From an uncultured bacterium (GTDB taxonomy: Bacteria > Pseudomonadota > Gammaproteobacteria > Burkholderiales > Burkholderiaceae_E), in contig CAIZPE010000303.1 in assembly GCA_903934795.1 (NCBI GenBank), forward strand, positions 1-33,407: a stretch of 33,407 bases of DNA, written 5' to 3'. The notes beneath the pieces were generated by a model, which worked only from the letters and a program-made list of their open reading frames with translations, did no database searches and was not told the origin of the DNA. Of this stretch, positions 19,526 through 30,287 are shown one piece after another (the first letter of the stretch is position 1; every line of letters starts with the position of its first letter). The translations under genes and the position numbers were made by a program.

Positions 19526-21946
19526 GTGACTGAGCGGCAGCAGCCCGGCCTGGCCGAGGCCATCGACGATCACCTCATCAAGACGGTCGGGGTTTCACCC
19601 GGCCGGGCGGGCCCCATCGACCTCATGCTGGCCACCGCGCAGGTGGCCCGCGAGCAGCTCTCGCGCCGCTGGGTGAACACCCGTGCCCGCGAGCGCGACA
19701 GCCGCGCACGGCGGGTGTACTACCTGTCGATGGAGTTCCTGATCGGCCGCACCCTGTCCAATGCCCTGGGCGCGCTCGACCTGCAGGGGCCGGCGGCCGA
19801 GGGTCTGGTGCAGCATGCCGCGCGGCTCGAGGAGGTGGCCAGCCATGAGCCCGATGCCGGGCTGGGCAATGGCGGCCTGGGCCGGCTGGCGGCGTGCTTC
19901 CTCGACTCGATGGCCACGCTGGGCCTGCCGTCCTTCGGCTACGGCATCCGCTACGAGTACGGCATGTTCGCCCAGGAGATCCAGAACGGCTGCCAGGTGG
20001 AATACCCCGACCCCTGGCTGGCCAGCGGCACGCCCTGGGAGTTCCCGCGCGCCGGGCTGAGCTACCCGGTGCGCTTTGGCGGCTGGGTCGAGCATCAGGG
20101 CGGCCGGCCGGTGTGGCGCGCGGCCGGCGAGGTCGCCGCCAAGGCCTACGACATGGTGGTGCCGGGCCACGGCACCGAGCATGTCAGCACGCTGCGGCTG
20201 TGGCGCGCCGTGGCGCCCGAGCACATCGACCTGCATGCCTTCAATACCGGCGACTATGCCCGCGCCGCCGGGGTCAAGAACGAGTACGAGAACATCTCCT
20301 GGGTGCTGTACCCCAATGACAGCACCCCGGCCGGCCGCGAGCTGCGGCTGCGCCAGGAGTACTTCTTCGTGGCCGCCTCGGTGCAGGACATCATCGCCCG
20401 CCACCTGGAGGAGCACGGCACGCTCGCCAACCTGCATCGCCATGTCGCCATCCACCTGAACGACACCCATCCCGCGGTGGCGGTGCCCGAACTGATGCGG
20501 CTGCTCTGCGACGAGCACGGCATGGACTGGGACGCGGCCTGGGCGATCGCCGGCGAGGTCTTCTCCTACACCAACCACACCCTGATGCCCGAGGCGCTGG
20601 AGACCTGGCCGGTATCCCTGGTGCAGCATGTGCTGCCGCGCCACCTCGAGATCATCTTCCGCATCAACCAGGCCTTCCTCGACATGGCCGCCCGCGTGCG
20701 GCCGGGCGATGTCGGCTTCCTGGCCCGGCTGTCACTGATCGACGAGACCGGCGAGCGCCGGGTGCGCATGGCCCACCTGTGCATCGTCGGCAGCCATCAG
20801 GTCAATGGCGTGTCGGCCCTGCACTCCGATCTGCTGGTGCGCACCATCTTCGCCGACTTCGCCGCGCTCTGGCCGCAGCGCTTCACCAATGTCACCAACG
20901 GCGTCACGCCGCGGCGCTGGCTGGCCCAGGCCAACCCTGGCCTGGGCGGGCTGCTCGACCGCGTCCTGAGCCCCGCCTGGCGGCTCGACCTCGATCGCCT
21001 CGCGCAGCTGCGCGAGCTGGCGGGTGACGCCGCGTTCCGCGAGGACTTCGCCGCGGTCAAGCGCGCCTGCAAGCTGCGTCTCGCGCAGCGGGTGGCCCGC
21101 GTGGCCGGCGTGGTGATCGACCCGGACAGCCTCTTCGATGTGCAGGTCAAGCGGATCCACGAGTACAAGCGCCAGCTGCTCAACCTGCTGCATGTGGTCC
21201 ACCGCTACCAGGCCATCCTCGCCAACCCGGCGGCCGACTGGGTGCCGCGCACGGTGATCTTCGCCGGCAAGGCTGCGTCCTCGTACGCGATGGCCAAGAA
21301 CATCATCCGCCTGATCCACGATGCGGCCTCGGTGATCAATGCCGATCCGCGGGTGGCCGGACGGCTGCGGGTAGCCTTCCTGCCCAACTATGGCGTGTCG
21401 CTGGCCGAGGTGATCATGCCCGGGGCCGAGCTCTCGCAGCAGATCAGCACCGCGGGCACCGAGGCCTCGGGCACCGGCAACATGAAGCTCGCGCTCAACG
21501 GCGCGCTCACCATCGGCACCGACGACGGCGCTAACATCGAGATCCGCGAACGGGTGGGCGACGAGAACATCTTCATCTTCGGTCTGCGCACGCCCGAGGT
21601 CCAGGCGCTGCGCGCCCAGGGCTACCAGCCGATGCGGCTCTACGAGGGCAATCCGGCGCTGCGCCAGGTGCTCGATGCGATCGCGGGCGGCGCCTTCTCA
21701 CCCGAGGAGCCGGGCCGTCACCGCGGCGTGGTCGATTCCCTGCTCTGGGGGGGCGACCACTATCTGCTGCTGGCCGATTTCGCCGACTACCTCCAGGCGC
21801 AGGCCCGCGTCGACCAGCTCTACCGTCGGCCTGCCGACTGGACCGCACGAGCCATCGCCAATGTCGCCGGCATGGGCGCGTTCTCCTCGGACCGCAGCAT
21901 CCGCGAATACGCCAGCCGCATCTGGCGGGTCGAGCCGCTGCGGTGA
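19526..21946 (+). CDS. glgP: Glycogen/starch phosphorylase
   Basis: [88 protein letters not shown] start proposed at 19526 after GGGAGA. Confidence 0.94.
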
Positions 21947-24120
21947 GCCCCGAAGACCTCGCTGCCCTCCTCGAGGCCCGGCATGCCGATCCCTTCGGCG
22001 TGCTCGGGCCGCATCCGGATGGCGCGGGGGCCTGGTGCCTGCGGGCCTTCCTTCCCGGCGCACAGGCGGTATGGGCCGTCGCTGCGGCGGGCGCGCCGGC
22101 GCTGGCCGATCTGCTCTGCGTGCATCCCGACGGCGTCTTCGAGGGCCGCCTGCCCGCGCTGCCGCCTGGCGGCTATCGGCTGCGGGTGAACTGGCCGGGC
22201 GCGCCCGCGGCGCTGATCGACGATCCCTACCGCTTCGGCCCGGTGCTCGGCGAGCTCGATGCCTGGCTGCTTGCCGAGGGCACGCATCTGCGGCCGGCCG
22301 AGGCGCTCGGCGCGGCGCCCTGCGAACACGGCGGCCGGCCGGGCACGCGCTTCGCGGTCTGGGCACCCAACGCCGCGCGGGTGAGCGTGGTCGGCGACTT
22401 CAACCACTGGGACGGCCGGCGCCACCCGATGCGGCTGCGTCGCGAGTGCGGCGTGTGGGAGATCTTCCTGCCCGATGTCGGCGAGGGCGCGCGCTACAAG
22501 TACGAGATCCGCGCCGCCGATGGCCGGGTGCTGCCGCACAAGGCCGACCCGGTCGCGCTGCGCGCCGAGCTGCGCCCGGCCACCGCCAGCGTGGTCTCGG
22601 TGCTGCCGCCGCGGCTGCCGCCCGACGAGGCGCGAGGCCGGGCCAATGCCCGCGGCGCGCCGATGAGCATCTACGAGGTGCATGTCGGCTCGTGGCGGCG
22701 GCCGGCCGACCAGCCCGCGGGCTTCCTGGACTGGGACGCGCTCGCCGACACGCTGGTGCCCTATGCCGCCGACCTGGGCTTCACCCACCTGGAGCTGCTG
22801 CCGGTCAACGAACATCCCTTCGACGGCTCCTGGGGCTATCAGCCCACCGGCCTGTTCGCGCCGAGCGCCCGCTTCGGCGATCCCGACGGCCTGCGCCGCT
22901 TCATCGCCCGCAGCCATGCCGCCGGCCTGGGCGTGCTGCTCGACTGGGTGCCCGGGCACTTTCCGGCCGATGCCCACGGCCTGGCCGAGTTCGACGGCAC
23001 CCGGCTCTACGAGCATGCCGATCCGCGCGAGGGCGTGCACCGCGACTGGCACACCCTGATCTACAACTTTGGCCGCACCGAGGTGCGCAACTTCCTGATC
23101 GGCAACGCCCTGCACTGGCTCGAGCGCTTCGGCGCCGACGGCCTGCGGGTGGATGCGGTGGCCTCGATGCTCTATCGCGACTACAGCCGGCCGCCGGGCG
23201 AGTGGCTGCCCAATGCCCAGGGCGGCCGCGAGAACCTCGAGGCGATCGACTTCCTCAAGCGCCTGAATGCCGTGCTCGGCGCCGAGCGTCCGCAGGCGGT
23301 GACCATCGCCGAGGAGTCCACCGCCTTCCCGGGGGTCTCGCGGCCGGTGCATCTCGGTGGACTGGGCTTCCACTACAAGTGGAACATGGGCTGGATGAAC
23401 GACACGCTGTCCTACATCGGGCGCAACCCCGTGCACCGCGTGCACCACCACCACCAGCTCACCTTCGGACTGATGTACGCGTTCAGCGAGAACTTCGTGC
23501 TGCCCATCTCGCATGACGAGGTGGTGCACGGCAAGGGCTCGCTGCTCGGCCGCATGCCGGGTGATCGCTGGCAGCGCCTGGCCAATCTTCGCGCCTACCT
23601 CGCCTTCCTGTTCGGCCACCCCGGCAAGAAGCTGCTGTTCATGGGCTGCGAGTTCGGCCAGGAGCGCGAGTGGAACCACGACGCCGAGCTCGACTGGGGC
23701 CTGCTTGCCGACCCGGCGCATGCCGGGGTGCAGCAGCTGGTGCGCGACCTGAACCGGTTGCACCGGACGCTGCCCGCGCTGCATGAGCTCGACTGCGAGC
23801 CGGCCGGCTTCGAGTGGATCGACCACACCGACGCGCAGGCCTCGGTGATCGCCTTCCTGCGCCGCGCCCGCGAGGGCCCGCCGGTGCTGGTGGTGTGCAA
23901 CTTCACGCCGGTGGTGCGGCACGGCTACCGGCTCGGCGTGCCGGCGCCCGGTGTCTGGCGCGAGCGGCTGAACACCGATTCCCGCCACTACGGCGGCAGC
24001 GATGTCGGCGCGGCCTGGGGCGTACTCACCGCGCAGGCTGCGCCTGCGCACGGCCGGCCCTGGTCGCTGGCCATGGATCTGCCGCCGCTGGCCGTGGTGT
24101 TCCTGGAGCACGCGCCGTGA
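21943..24120 (+). CDS. glgB: 1,4-alpha-glucan branching enzyme
   Basis: 725 aa; [67 protein letters not shown] start overlaps glgP stop (GTGA). Confidence 0.96.
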
Positions 24121-26129
24121 GCCTGCTGCCGGGCCGGCCCTGGCCGCTGGGCGCGCACTGGGACGGCGGCGGCGTGAACGTCGCGGTGTTCTCGGCCCAC
24201 GCCCAGCGCATCGAGCTGTGCCTGTTCGACGACAGCGGCGAGCATGAGCTCAGCCGGCAGCGGTTGCCCGCGCACAGCCGCGATGTCTTTCACGGCTATC
24301 TGCCGGACGCGGGCCCGGGGCTGGTCTACGGCCTGCGTGCCCACGGCCCGCAGCGTCCTGATGACGGCCACTGCTTCGATCCCGACCAGCTGCTGCTCGA
24401 CCCCTGGGCGCGCGAGCTGGTCGGGCAGCCCGATGGCCTGCGCGCACCGCGGGCCCGCGTGGTGGCCGACGAGGCCGAGCCCGGCGGCTATCTGAGGCCC
24501 TGGCACGACAGCGCCGATCTCCTGCTCTACGAGCTGCATGTCAAGGGCTTCACCCGCCTGCACCCCGAGGTGCCCGAGCCGCTGCGCGGCACCTTCGCCG
24601 GCCTGGCCCATCCGGCGGCGATCGCCCACCTGCAGCGCCTGGGGGTCACCGCCGTGAGCCTGCTGCCGGTGCAGCAGCACCTGAGCGAAGCCCGGCTCAC
24701 CCGCCTGGGCCTGGTCAACTACTGGGGCTACAACACCCTGGGCTTCTTCTGCCCTGATCCGCGCCTGGCCGCCAGCGCCGCGCAGGGCGGGCGCGCGGTG
24801 CGCGACGAGTTCCGCGCGATGGTGCGCGCGCTGCACGGCGCCGGCATCGAGGTGATCCTCGATGTGGTCTTCAACCACACCGCGGAGGGCGACGAGACCG
24901 GTCCCACGCTGAGCTGGCGCGGGCTCGACAACCGCTCCTGGTACCGCGTGCCGCACGATCAGCCCGGCCGCTACATCAACGACACCGGCTGCGGCAACAC
25001 GCTCGACCTGCGCCAGCCGCGGGTGCTGCAGTTCGTCATGGATTGCCTGCGCCACTGGGTGCGCGAGATGCAGGTCGATGGTTTCCGCTTCGACCTCGCC
25101 ACCGTGCTCGCCCGTGGCGATCACGGCTTCGATGCGCAGGCGCCGTTCTTTCGCGCCATCGCTCAGGACCCGGTGCTCGCCGGTGTGCGCCTGATCGCCG
25201 AGCCCTGGGATGTCGGCCCGGGCGGCTACCAGCTCGGCGGCTTTCCGCATGGCTGGCTGGAGTGGAACGACCGCTTTCGCGACACCATGCGCCGCTGGTG
25301 GCTGCGCGGTCATGTGGCCCGAGGTGAGTTCGCGCAGCGGCTGTGCGCCTCGTCGGACCTGTTCCACCGCCGTCATCGGCTGCCCGCCGATTCCGTCAAC
25401 TATGTGGTGTCACACGACGGCTTCACGCTGCGCGACCTCGTCACCTGGCAGCACCGGCGCAATCAGGCCAATGGCGAGGACAACCGCGACGGCCATGTCG
25501 ACAACCTGGGCTGCAACTTCGGCCTCGAGGGCGAGCCGGCCCCGCCCGAGGTGACGGCGGTGCGCGATCGCGCCCGCCGTGCGCTGCTGGCCACGGTGCT
25601 GCTGTCACAGGGCACACCCATGCTGGCCGCCGGCGACGAGCTCGGCCATACCCAGGGCGGCAACAACAATCCCTACTGCCAGGACAACGCCACCACCTGG
25701 ATCGACTGGTCGCAGGCCGACCAGACCCTCATCGCCTTCGTCGCCCGCGTGGCCGCGCTGCGTCGCGCGCATCTGCCGCTGGCCAACCACTGGTACACCG
25801 GCACGGCCGGCCATGGCGGCCGCGCCGATCTCGCCTGGCTCACCGCCGAGGGCGAGCCGCTGCACGGCGATGCCTGGCACCTGCCCGATGGCCGCTGCCT
25901 GGCGGCGCTGATCGGCGCGCCCGGCCGCTGCCCCGACGGCCATCAGGCCGCGCTGCTGCTGCTGGTCAACGGTGATGCCGAGCTCGCGCCATTCCGCCTG
26001 CCGGCTGGCCGCTGGCAGTGCCTGCTCGACAGCAGCCAGGCCGATGGCGCGCCAGCCGATGAGTCACCGGCGCGGGCGATGCTGACGGTGCCCGGTCATG
26101 CGCTGCTGCTGCTGCGGGAGCTGCCATGA
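24117..26129 (+). CDS. glgX: Glycogen debranching enzyme
   Basis: [76 protein letters not shown] start overlaps glgB stop. Confidence 0.95.
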
Positions 26130-27634
26130 GGCTGCCGCGCGCCAGCGGCGTGCTGCTGCACCCCACCTCGCTGCCCGGACCGCACGGCAGCGGCGATCTG
26201 GGGCCGGCCGCCTATCACTTCGTCGACTGGCTGGTGAGCGCCGGCCAGCGGCTGTGGCAGGTGCTGCCGCTGGGCTGCATCGGGCCGGGGCACTCGCCCT
26301 ACATGAGCGCCTCGGCCTTTGCCGGCAACCCGCTGCTGATCGACCTGGAGGAGTTGCGCCGCCATGGCTGGCTCTCCGAGGACGCACTTGCGGCGCAGTC
26401 TGGATTTCGCGATGACCGGATCGACCACACCGTGGTCGGGCCCTGGCGCATGGCGCAGCTCGCCCGGGCCCATGCCGGATTCGAGGCTCGGGCCAGCGCC
26501 CATGATCGCGAGGCCTTCGCGGCCTGGCGCCGGCAGCAGGCCGACTGGCTGGATGACTTCGCCCTGTTCATGGCGCTGGTCGATGCCCGGCCGATGCTCG
26601 CCTGGGCCGACTGGCCCGCACCGCTCGTCCGGCGCGAGCCGTCGGCGCTGCGCGAGGCCGCCCGCGAGCATCACCATCGGGTGGCCTTCTGGGCCTTCAC
26701 GCAATGGTGCTTCGACCGGCAGTGGGCGGCGCTGCGCGCCTACGCGGCGCAGCGCGGTGTGCGCCTGGTGGGCGACATGCCGATCTTCGTCGCCTGGCAC
26801 AGCGCCGATGTCTGGGCCCACCAGTCCCTGTTCGATCTCGATGCGCGGGGCTGGCCACGGGTGGTGGCCGGTGTGCCGCCCGACTTCTTCAGCGAGACCG
26901 GTCAGCGCTGGGGCAACCCGCTCTATCGCTGGCCGGCGCATGCCGCCCAGGGCCATGCCTGGTGGATCGCCCGGGTGCGCCGCTGCTTCGCGCAGGCCGA
27001 CATCGTGCGCATCGACCACTTCCGCGGCTTTGCCGCGCACTGGGAGATCCCGGCCGATGCGCCCACCGCGGTGGCCGGCCGCTGGATGCCGGGCCCGGGC
27101 GCGGCGCTCTTCGATGCGATCCGTGCAGCGCTCGGTCCGCTGCCGGTGATCGCCGAGGACCTGGGGGTGATCACCGACGACGTGGTAGCCCTGCGTCACC
27201 GATTCGCGCTCCCCGGCATGCGCATCCTGCAGTTCGCCTTCGGCGGCGACGCCGGCAACGCCTACCTGCCGCACAACCACGAACCCGACAGCGTGGTCTA
27301 CACCGGCACCCACGACAACGACACCACCCTGGGCTGGTGGGCTGGCGCGGCCGAGCCGGTTCGCCGACATGTCCGCCGGTACCCCGGGCGAGCCGCCGAC
27401 GATGCCGCCGGCGATGTCCATGTGCACCTGGAGCTGATCCGGCTGGCGCTGGCCAGCGTGGCCGACACCGCCATCGTGCCGATGCAGGATGTGCTCGGCC
27501 TGGGCGTCGGGCATCGCATGAACACCCCGGGCGAGGCGCAGGGCTGCTGGGCATGGCGCTTCAGCTGGGCTCAGGTCCATGAAGGCCATGCCGGGCGGCT
27601 GCGCGAGATGGTGTCGCTCTACGGGCGTGGCTGA
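26126..27634 (+). CDS. malQ: 4-alpha-glucanotransferase (amylomaltase)
   Basis: 502 aa; RASGVLLHPTSLPGPHGSGDLG, SPYMSASAFAGNPLLIDL, RIDHFRGFAAHWEIPA, IAEDLGVITDDV, YTGTHDNDTTLGWW; ATG overlaps glgX stop. Confidence 0.95.
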   Translation: MRLPRASGVLLHPTSLPGPHGSGDLGPAAYHFVDWLVSAGQRLWQVLPLGCIGPGHSPYMSASAFAGNPLLIDLEELRRHGWLSEDALAAQSGFRDDRIDHTVVGPWRMAQLARAHAGFEARASAHDREAFAAWRRQQADWLDDFALFMALVDARPMLAWADWPAPLVRREPSALREAAREHHHRVAFWAFTQWCFDRQWAALRAYAAQRGVRLVGDMPIFVAWHSADVWAHQSLFDLDARGWPRVVAGVPPDFFSETGQRWGNPLYRWPAHAAQGHAWWIARVRRCFAQADIVRIDHFRGFAAHWEIPADAPTAVAGRWMPGPGAALFDAIRAALGPLPVIAEDLGVITDDVVALRHRFALPGMRILQFAFGGDAGNAYLPHNHEPDSVVYTGTHDNDTTLGWWAGAAEPVRRHVRRYPGRAADDAAGDVHVHLELIRLALASVADTAIVPMQDVLGLGVGHRMNTPGEAQGCWAWRFSWAQVHEGHAGRLREMVSLYGRG

Positions 27635-27706: not shown

Positions 27707-27802
27707 CCAGACGACTTCCTGGGCAAACCCGTCGAAAGGCGGGGACGCAAATCCACCGGCCTGACCCGCAGATGCGGCATGGCAGCGGGGCTGCCGGTGG
27801 CG
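27707..27802 (+). ncRNA. Cyclic-di-GMP-I (GEMM-I) riboswitch aptamer
   Basis: GGGCAAACCCGTCGAAAGGCGGGGACGCAAATCCACCGGCCTGACCC...GGCAGCGGGGCTGCCGGTGG closely follows the GEMM-I signature (GGGCAAACC-stem-GAAA-stem-GGGACGCAAAGCC-CCGGCCU...GGUAGCGGGGUUACCGAUGG); perfect CCCGUC/GGCGGG stem capped by the GAAA tetraloop. Confidence 0.9.
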
Positions 27803-27860
27803 AGCCGCGCGATCCTCCCTCTCGGGCGGGCCGCAGCGCCCACTGCGAATGCGTGGCCCG

Positions 27861-27879
27861 GGTCCTCATCGGAGCGACC
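27861..27879 (+). promoter_or_regulatory. Shine-Dalgarno-sequestering hairpin (candidate riboswitch expression platform)
   Basis: GGTCCTC-ATCG-GAG(C)GACC, 7 bp with a single bulged C; 3' arm/loop covers GGAG at 27871-27874, upstream of ATG 27885. Confidence 0.5.
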
Positions 27880-27884
27880 AGGCC

Positions 27885-30287
27885 ATGCCCACCGTGAACA
27901 TCCCGCCCCTGTCCTCACCGTGGCCGCACCGTGCCCGCCGGGCTGCGCTCGCGTTCGCCGCGGTGCTCGCCGCCTGCGGCGGCGGCGGGGGCGGCAGCCC
28001 GTCCACCGGCGGCACCAGCGTCGTTCCCGATCCGGATCAGACACCGGCGGCGATCGCCACCGCCGACACCACGCTGCTGGTCAGCGGGGCCGACCTGCCC
28101 GAGGCCGTGGCGCTGGAGTCCGCCATCCCGCTCTTTCATGCCGCGCCGACCCTGCTCGAGCCGCCGGATGACAGCGATGTCGAGAATGCCGAGGCCTCGG
28201 CCACGAGGCCGCCCAACACCTATCGGCTGCCGGCACTGAAGAGCGCTGCCGACACCGCCCGGCTCACCGTGCAGGACATCGAGGAACTGCGCAAGGGCGC
28301 CGACAGCGGGCCCGCGGTGGCCACCAAGGATGTCACGCCGATGGCGGGCGGCGGTGTGATCGCCACCTACACCCCGGCGCAGATCCGCGCGGCATACGGC
28401 ATGCCGGCCCTGCCTGCGTCGCTGGCCACGATGAGCGCCACCCAGGCTGCACAGCTGGGCGCAGGCCAGACCATCTACATCGTCAACGCGTACCACAACC
28501 CGAATGTGGCCGCCGAGCTGGCTGCCTTCAACCAGAAGTTCGGGCTGCCTGCCTGTACCACGCGCGCGATCGCGGTCAACGCCAGTCTGCCCCTGCCCGG
28601 CCCCTCGGCCAGAGCCTGTGATCTGTCGGTGGTCTACAGCACCCCGGCCGGGGCGATGACCACCGTGGCGCCGGCCTACGACGCCGGCTGGGCCACCGAG
28701 ATCGCGCTGGATGTGCAGTGGGCGCATGCCACCGCGCCGCTGGCGCGCATCGTGGTGATCGAGGCACCGAACGCCTCGGTGAGCAGCCTGGTCGGCGCGA
28801 TCCGGCTGGCCAACGCCATGGGCCCCGGCGTGGTCTCGATGAGCTTCGGTGCGATCGAGGGCAGCTGGACCGCCTCGGTCGATTCGGTGTTCACCGCGCC
28901 GCGCATGACCTACCTGGCGGCCACCGGCGACTCCGGGGCCGCCGTGGCCTGGCCCTCGGTGTCGCCCAATGTGGTGGCGGTGGGCGGCACTTCGCTCACC
29001 GCGGTGGGCGTGGGCAGCCGCACCGAGTCCGCCTGGTCGGGCGCGGGCGGCGGCATCAGCGCGTACACCGCGGTGCCGAGCTACCAGAGCGCGCCGGTGC
29101 CGGGACTGAATGTGGCCACGCGCCGCGTGGTCGCCGATGTGGCCTTCAATGCCGACCCGGCCACCGGTCAGTACCTGGCGGTGATCAAGCCCGGCAGCAC
29201 CACCGTCAACTGGATGAGCTCTGGCGGCACCAGCATCGCGGCGCCGCAGTGGGCTGGGCTGATGGCCATCGCCAATGCGGTGCGGGCGCAGGCCGGCAGG
29301 CTGCCCATCGGCTCGCCGCACAGTGTGCTCTACGGGCAGATCGGTGCCGTGCCGGGTGCGTATGCCAGCGCCTTTGCCGACATCACTGCCGGCAGCAACG
29401 GAACCTGCGCACCCTGCATCGCCAAGGCCGGCTACGATGTGCCCACCGGCCTGGGCACGCCCAGAGCCACCGGGCTGCTCAGCGCTCTGGCCGGCTCCTC
29501 CTTGCCGCCACAGGCGCCGGTGGTCACCCCGGCGGGCATCAGCGGCACCGCCGGCACCGCCCTGTCGTTCACCGTCTCGGTCTCGGCGGCCAACCCGGTC
29601 AGCTACACCCTCTCGGGCGCACCCTCGGGCATGAGCATCAGTGCGGCGGGCGTGGTCACCTGGGCCACGCCGGTGGCGGGCAGCTATCCGGTGACGGTCA
29701 CGGCCCGCGATACCGTCACCCAGCTCACCGGTCAGGGTCTGTACACCGTGACTGTCGCCGCGGCGGTGCCGCCCACCGTGAACCCGGCCAGCATCAACGG
29801 CCGACCGGGCGTGCCCCTGAGCTTCGCGGCCAGCGTGACCGGCAGCAATCCGGTCACCTACACGCTGAGCGGGGCGCCTGGCGGCATGAGCATCAGCGCC
29901 GCGGGCGTGGTGAGCTGGGCCTCGCCGATGCTGGGCACCTACACCGTGACCGTCACCGCCCGTGACACCAGAACCAACCTGAGAGGCCAGGGCGTCTACA
30001 CGGTGAAGATCGTGCAGGCCGGCCCGGTGATCACCGCCGCGCCGATCAGCGGTGTGTCAGGGCGTACGCTCACCGGCACGATCACCATCACCGACGCCAC
30101 GGCCACGGCGATCTATGTCTCGATCGGCGGCGTGCCGCTGGGCATGCGATTCTCGGTCAATGGCAGCAGCATCCTGGTGAACTGGCCCAATCCGGTGGTC
30201 GGCAGCTACCGGCTCACCGTGACCGCCGTTGACTCGGCCGGTCTGCGCGCGCAGGCCACGGTGCCGGTGACGGTGAGCGCGAAGTAG
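27885..30287 (+). CDS. S53 (sedolisin)-like serine-carboxyl peptidase lipoprotein with C-terminal Ig-like repeats
   Basis: Lipobox LAAC followed by GGGGGG; WATEIALDVQWAHATAP (Glu/Asp), YLAATGDSGA (oxyanion Asp), SSGGTSIAAPQWAGLMA (catalytic Ser); three C-terminal Ig-like modules. Confidence 0.87.
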   Translation: MPTVNIPPLSSPWPHRARRAALAFAAVLAACGGGGGGSPSTGGTSVVPDPDQTPAAIATADTTLLVSGADLPEAVALESAIPLFHAAPTLLEPPDDSDVENAEASATRPPNTYRLPALKSAADTARLTVQDIEELRKGADSGPAVATKDVTPMAGGGVIATYTPAQIRAAYGMPALPASLATMSATQAAQLGAGQTIYIVNAYHNPNVAAELAAFNQKFGLPACTTRAIAVNASLPLPGPSARACDLSVVYSTPAGAMTTVAPAYDAGWATEIALDVQWAHATAPLARIVVIEAPNASVSSLVGAIRLANAMGPGVVSMSFGAIEGSWTASVDSVFTAPRMTYLAATGDSGAAVAWPSVSPNVVAVGGTSLTAVGVGSRTESAWSGAGGGISAYTAVPSYQSAPVPGLNVATRRVVADVAFNADPATGQYLAVIKPGSTTVNWMSSGGTSIAAPQWAGLMAIANAVRAQAGRLPIGSPHSVLYGQIGAVPGAYASAFADITAGSNGTCAPCIAKAGYDVPTGLGTPRATGLLSALAGSSLPPQAPVVTPAGISGTAGTALSFTVSVSAANPVSYTLSGAPSGMSISAAGVVTWATPVAGSYPVTVTARDTVTQLTGQGLYTVTVAAAVPPTVNPASINGRPGVPLSFAASVTGSNPVTYTLSGAPGGMSISAAGVVSWASPMLGTYTVTVTARDTRTNLRGQGVYTVKIVQAGPVITAAPISGVSGRTLTGTITITDATATAIYVSIGGVPLGMRFSVNGSSILVNWPNPVVGSYRLTVTAVDSAGLRAQATVPVTVSAK
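29517..30287 (+). repeat. Three tandem putative Ig-like modules in the peptidase C-terminus
   Basis: NPVSYTLSGAPSGMSISAAGVVTWATPVAGSYPVTVTARD and NPVTYTLSGAPGGMSISAAGVVSWASPMLGTYTVTVTARD, plus a diverged third copy; modules start at about 29517, 29769 and 30021. Confidence 0.8.

Follow-up and report, generated by a model that had tools for sequence, protein, structure and literature searches.

The leader of an S53 (sedolisin-like) peptidase gene in the window (the whole stretch of 33,407 nucleotides that was analysed) carries a c-di-GMP-I riboswitch, which we take, with a probability of about three in four, to be a co-transcriptional strand-exchange OFF switch acting at translation initiation. 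The aptamer, two competing helices and their overlap, their conservation with some covariation, and the homology of the gene product to S53 peptidases could be established from the sequence. The features are as follows.

27712-27798, + strand: c-di-GMP-I (GEMM-I) riboswitch aptamer (cmscan, RF01051, 76.5 bits, E = 1.5e-13, full length)
27718-27724, + strand: antisequestor 5' arm, the aptamer 5' leg CCUGGGC, complementary to 27856-27862 (covariation, folding); includes the equivalent of a ligand-contact G
27795-27800, + strand: linker stem 5' arm CGGUGG, beginning where the aptamer core ends
27840-27845, + strand: linker stem 3' arm CCACUG (CCACCG in the relative L052), pairing with 27795-27800
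27851-27858, + strand: sequestor 5' arm GCGUGGCC (outer stem), conserved in homologues
27856-27862, + strand: antisequestor 3' arm GCCCGGG, which overlaps both the 5' arm of the sequestor and the inner hairpin (first two bases of the latter)
27861-27879, + strand: inner hairpin GGUCCUC-AUCG-GAG(C)GACC, which holds the Shine-Dalgarno (SD) sequence; similar hairpins in L052 and L054
27871-27874, + strand: SD sequence GGAG, placed relative to ATG 27885; GGAG is kept in most homologous leaders
27881-27888, + strand: sequestor 3' arm GGCCAUGC with the start codon inside, pairing with 27851-27858
27885-30287, + strand: S53 (sedolisin-like) peptidase of 800 amino acids with a lipoprotein signal (LAAC) and He_PIG domains (sedolisin 1ga1, E = 4e-11)

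The aptamer, its target gene and its relatives

The match to RF01051 spanned the full length of the model, with 76.5 bits against a gathering score of 35, and 27712-27798 was the only copy of a c-di-GMP-I aptamer in the genome. When the window was aligned by eye to Vc2, the ligand-contact residues of the class were present, G27722, A27749 and C27794 being what we take to be the counterparts of G20, A47 and C92. The latter three are the ligand-contact residues of Vc2 (PMC11218506). Sequence and structure thus support a genuine c-di-GMP-I aptamer. The window has U at 27752 (AAAUCC instead of AAAGCC), in contrast to G or A in the relatives seen, and cmscan flagged a non-standard pair at about this position; given this pair, the affinity for c-di-GMP may be reduced. 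Directly after the aptamer core, a linker helix of at least 6 bp was found in 46 of 56 leaders, usually anchored at the last C of the aptamer GCC; the longest helix in this region averaged 6.5 bp, compared with 4.8 bp after shuffling. This stem is probably a spacer between the platform and the aptamer.

The downstream gene encodes a protein that is related to solved sedolisins (1ga1, E = 4e-11 over 350-526) and has the GTSxxxP serine motif (GGTSIAAP versus GGTSLASP), which places it in the S53 family; its lipoprotein-type signal ends in LAAC. The riboswitch is immediately preceded, on its own strand, by glycogen genes (21943-27634) that encode a branching enzyme, a 4-alpha-glucanotransferase and a CBM48/alpha-amylase protein that is probably a debranching enzyme. 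The ATG at 27885, from which the preliminary description had counted, is favoured as the start codon and is kept in the nearest relative, L052, which is of the same genus as the window (as is L054) and shares 92% protein identity. An in-frame ATG at 27849 was rejected because L052 has ACG at that position.

A protein search gave a sample of 80 homologous loci, whose platforms and start codons were assigned by script and, in about a dozen leaders, by hand. Besides the window, 55 relatives had the aptamer upstream of the S53 gene together with a shared element immediately 5' of the gene, GCGUGGCCCUCGCCC - spacer - GGAG - spacer - GGCCAUG. In the 21 examined homologues in which no aptamer was recognised (the Duganella group and others), the element was absent too: the best ungapped match to it had a median of 8/15, compared with 13/15 where the aptamer was present, both classes excluding L071, L078 and L089 (decayed aptamer); L075 starts within the gene. 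In L089, the leg GAGGGC and the platform GCGGCCCUCGG persist but the aptamer core GACGCAAAG is degraded; the platform may here have outlived a riboswitch that is now dead. No recognised aptamer and no platform were seen in a 16-member S53 clade, mostly from Duganella and Rugamonas (L066, L082, L094, L095, L099, L105, L118, L119, L121-L124, L127-L129 and L131); the switch was either lost there as a unit or never present. A genome-wide search with a loose platform pattern returned mostly chance hits and was discarded; the 4 loci checked had no recognisable aptamer. Cultured genera with the switch are Janthinobacterium, Undibacterium, Rugamonas and Rhodoferax.

A hairpin over the Shine-Dalgarno sequence and the start codon

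In the preliminary description, a 7-bp hairpin with one bulge was proposed to bury the SD sequence. Indeed, the letters were found exactly as described, with GGTCCTC at 27861-27867, the loop ATCG at 27868-27871, GAG at 27872-27874, a bulged C at 27875 and GACC at 27876-27879, and the stem was confirmed with -7.7 kcal/mol, although 6 of 200 dinucleotide shuffles folded as well. GGAG occupies 27871-27874, and 10 nt separate it from the ATG at 27885, also as proposed. The hairpin holds as a structure that sequesters the SD sequence, but it is only the apical part of a larger one: the AUG lies inside an outer 8-bp stem that had been overlooked, so that the SD sequence and the start codon are both inside a helix. 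The full hairpin of 38 nt (27851-27888) had a folding energy of -24.9 kcal/mol (z = -3.87; 1 of 200 shuffles was as good), and its counterpart in L052 had -21.7 kcal/mol (z = -4.0); in L054, the SD sequence is held in CUCCG/CGGAG inside a 7-bp outer stem (z = -1.7). In the complete leader of the window, the predicted probability of the sequestor at equilibrium was 1.0. Owing to the very high GC content of the region, the z-scores of whole-leader folds were close to zero, and the local hairpin alone stood out.

Across 41 distinct leaders, the eight pairs of the outer stem were standard in 76% of cells, compared with 24 to 47% when the arms were slid. Changes on both sides were found in five of the eight pairs (12 cells), a level reached in 2 of 500 shuffles, a raw count without correction for relatedness. 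Such compensations include GUAGCC/GGCUAU in L061 and GUGACC with UCAU in L093, L107 and L110. L069 and L092 start with GTG and have a re-matched 5' arm (AUCAC x GUGAU), but GCCCUC, which faces the aptamer leg, is still kept; these two leaders appear to separate the two roles of the element, as sequestor and as partner of the leg. Since the outer stem follows the start codon, GTG starts included, control at translation initiation is argued for. L125 has another possible sequestor, CUCGCUC x GAGCGAG, directly over the SD sequence and replacing the outer stem.

A translational-type platform, with a sequestered SD sequence and no visible terminator, had been favoured from the start, and the homologues and their compensatory changes strengthen that view. 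Neither a terminator-like nor an intrinsic site was found in the leader of the window, and the interval from aptamer to gene is free of intrinsic terminators. Intrinsic or Rho-dependent termination within the leader, with the hairpin incidental, is very improbable in our view: some c-di-GMP-I switches such as Bc1 do act on termination (PMC11218506) and a long ribosome-free leader could allow Rho to act, but the conserved helix has the start codon at its centre and tracks GTG starts, and in Pseudomonadota translational platforms predominate, terminators being found in only 10% of riboswitches (PMC12452182). Runs of 6 to 7 U occur in the sequestor loop just 5' of GGAG in L055, L063, L068, L084 and L098; they were rejected as terminators by eye, no stem ending immediately before them.

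Pairing of the aptamer 5' leg with the platform

A competing helix that overlaps both the sequestor and the aptamer was found in the pairing of 27718-27724 with 27856-27862. Because the latter segment shares 27856-27858 with the sequestor 5' arm, the leg-pairing fold and the sequestor fold are mutually exclusive. The leg also carries the equivalent of the ligand-contact residue G20 of Vc2, and therefore leg pairing and c-di-GMP binding should exclude each other. The pair reads CCUGGGC x GCCCGGG in the window, GAGGGC x GCCCUC in most relatives and GAAGGC x GCCUUC in Rugamonas. Its six pairs were standard in 93.5% of cells, compared with 32 to 62% when slid, and of 500 shuffles, again counted raw and without correction for relatedness, none was as high on cells paired and one was as high on the covariation score. 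On the protein tree, the compensations of window/L052 and of Rugamonas belong to separate clades. Because three of the six pairs are already dictated by the aptamer, the case for leg pairing rests on few compensations; in L060, L062, L065, L076 and L097 only a core of about four pairs is present. Of the other c-di-GMP-I aptamers of the order, 22 had a readable leader; none of these has the leg GAGGGC, and most of their legs are A-rich.

The preliminary description had suggested a different link between aptamer and hairpin, GGGCC (27828-27832) with GGCCC (27855-27859). The letters are present, but the link was rejected as unsupported because L052, the closest relative, lacks a counterpart of 27828-27832. 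In its place, the comparison supports the 5' leg (27718-27724) and 27856-27862 as the conserved connection.

We considered whether CCCUC is kept solely to pair with the GAG of the SD sequence, the hairpin then being a constitutive brake on which the aptamer has weak or no influence. The CUC at p9-p11 can indeed pair with this GAG in most leaders, leg and SD sequence change together in Rugamonas, and the sequestor of this GC-rich RNA is highly stable. In the window, however, p9-p12 (CGGG) are complementary to the leg (CCUG) but not to the SD sequence, which pairs with a separate CUC; moreover, the legs of the S53 group differ from those of other aptamers exactly at the paired bases, and aptamer and platform are jointly absent in 21 homologues. 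A constitutive brake is thus quite unlikely.

Folding predictions bore on the order in which the two helices may form. In transcripts truncated 5' of the start codon, the median probability of leg pairing was 0.94 (0.93 in the window); it fell to 0.08 when four bases of the leg were swapped for those of other aptamers and to 0.00 when the platform arm was shuffled. In complete leaders at equilibrium, the median was near zero and most did not form the leg pairing, which in the full-length RNA of the window loses by 9 kcal/mol. Thus, the ON state would need kinetic trapping or early loading of ribosomes. Sealing the aptamer hardly altered the predicted exposure of SD sequence and AUG at equilibrium, and the hairpin of the window formed either way; with so small an effect, equilibrium folding of whole leaders was uninformative as a test of switching, whereas the transcripts ending before the start codon were informative. 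The most economical reading of these models is a decision made during transcription.

Proposed mechanism and relation to known riboswitches

From the exclusive folds we infer the order of events, the effect of the ligand and the OFF direction. In the absence of c-di-GMP, the leg (27718-27724) would pair with 27856-27862 once the latter leaves the RNA polymerase; the sequestor would then be blocked, and GGAG and AUG would be accessible (ON). Binding of c-di-GMP would keep the leg in the ligand site by way of G27722 and leave 27851-27858 free to pair with GGCCAUGC at 27881-27888, so that the outer stem and the inner hairpin would close over AUG and SD sequence (OFF). Provided that the ON fold is the one with leg pairing and that the ligand removes it, c-di-GMP turns the protease off.

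The hairpin could also be a sequestor that c-di-GMP opens, through another antisequestor and with the leg complementarity incidental. ON switches of this class exist, as shown by Vc1, which enhances gbpA expression when c-di-GMP is high (PMC4744006; PMC11218506), and the predicted hairpin of the window is present at equilibrium whether the aptamer is sealed or not. But among the alternative pairings that of leg and platform has the best support, and since it involves the ligand-contact G, binding can only remove it; no other conserved partner for the sequestor 5' arm was seen. We therefore regard an ON switch as unlikely and retain the strand-exchange OFF switch.

Aptamer fold, ligand-contact residues and position in the leader are like those of c-di-GMP-I (GEMM-I) riboswitches in general (RF01051). 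The leg differs (GAGGGC or CCUGGGC here, mostly A-rich in other aptamers of the order); further differences are a dedicated platform for translational control, constructed around the start codon, and the target, an S53 peptidase. Bc1 of Bacillus thuringiensis, also of class I, likewise has its ribosome-binding site and AUG trapped when c-di-GMP is present, but it has two intrinsic terminators in a dual transcription-translation scheme, whereas none was found here (PMC11218506). Vc1 (gbpA) of Vibrio cholerae resembles the present leader as a proteobacterial c-di-GMP-I switch with a long 5' untranslated region lacking a terminator; however, Vc1 increases expression in response to c-di-GMP, and no anti-SD sequence was seen by its authors (PMC4744006). 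In 2016, the same authors described the mechanism downstream of the aptamer as unclear for the proteobacterial Vc1 and Vc2 (PMC4744006). Sequester/anti-sequester folds are recognised in general for c-di-GMP-I switches (PMC11218506). With the strand-exchange translational riboswitches of group 3, the present leader shares a switching sequence common to aptamer and platform and mutually exclusive folds, but the exchanged strand is here the 5' leg with the ligand-contact base, which pairs about 130 nt downstream (PMC10907184). In the literature searched, subscription papers being mostly outside our reach, we found no c-di-GMP riboswitch linked to an S53 or sedolisin peptidase. The type of switch is known; the present variant and its S53 target appear to be undescribed.

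We lean slightly toward a beta-proteobacterial design in which the ligand-contacting leg is the antisequestor, the start codon is what is mainly sequestered, and a surface S53 lipoprotein protease is repressed by c-di-GMP. Proteases that release biofilms are likewise active at low c-di-GMP only. On logical grounds, the OFF direction would fit a protease that is useful in motile cells with low c-di-GMP. The comparative evidence yields a concrete switching pair, with the exchanging bases, the direction and the start codon specified, and would connect c-di-GMP with a family of S53 proteases found in Burkholderiales and further beta-proteobacteria. Since the switch is present in several cultured genera, it is open to immediate testing.
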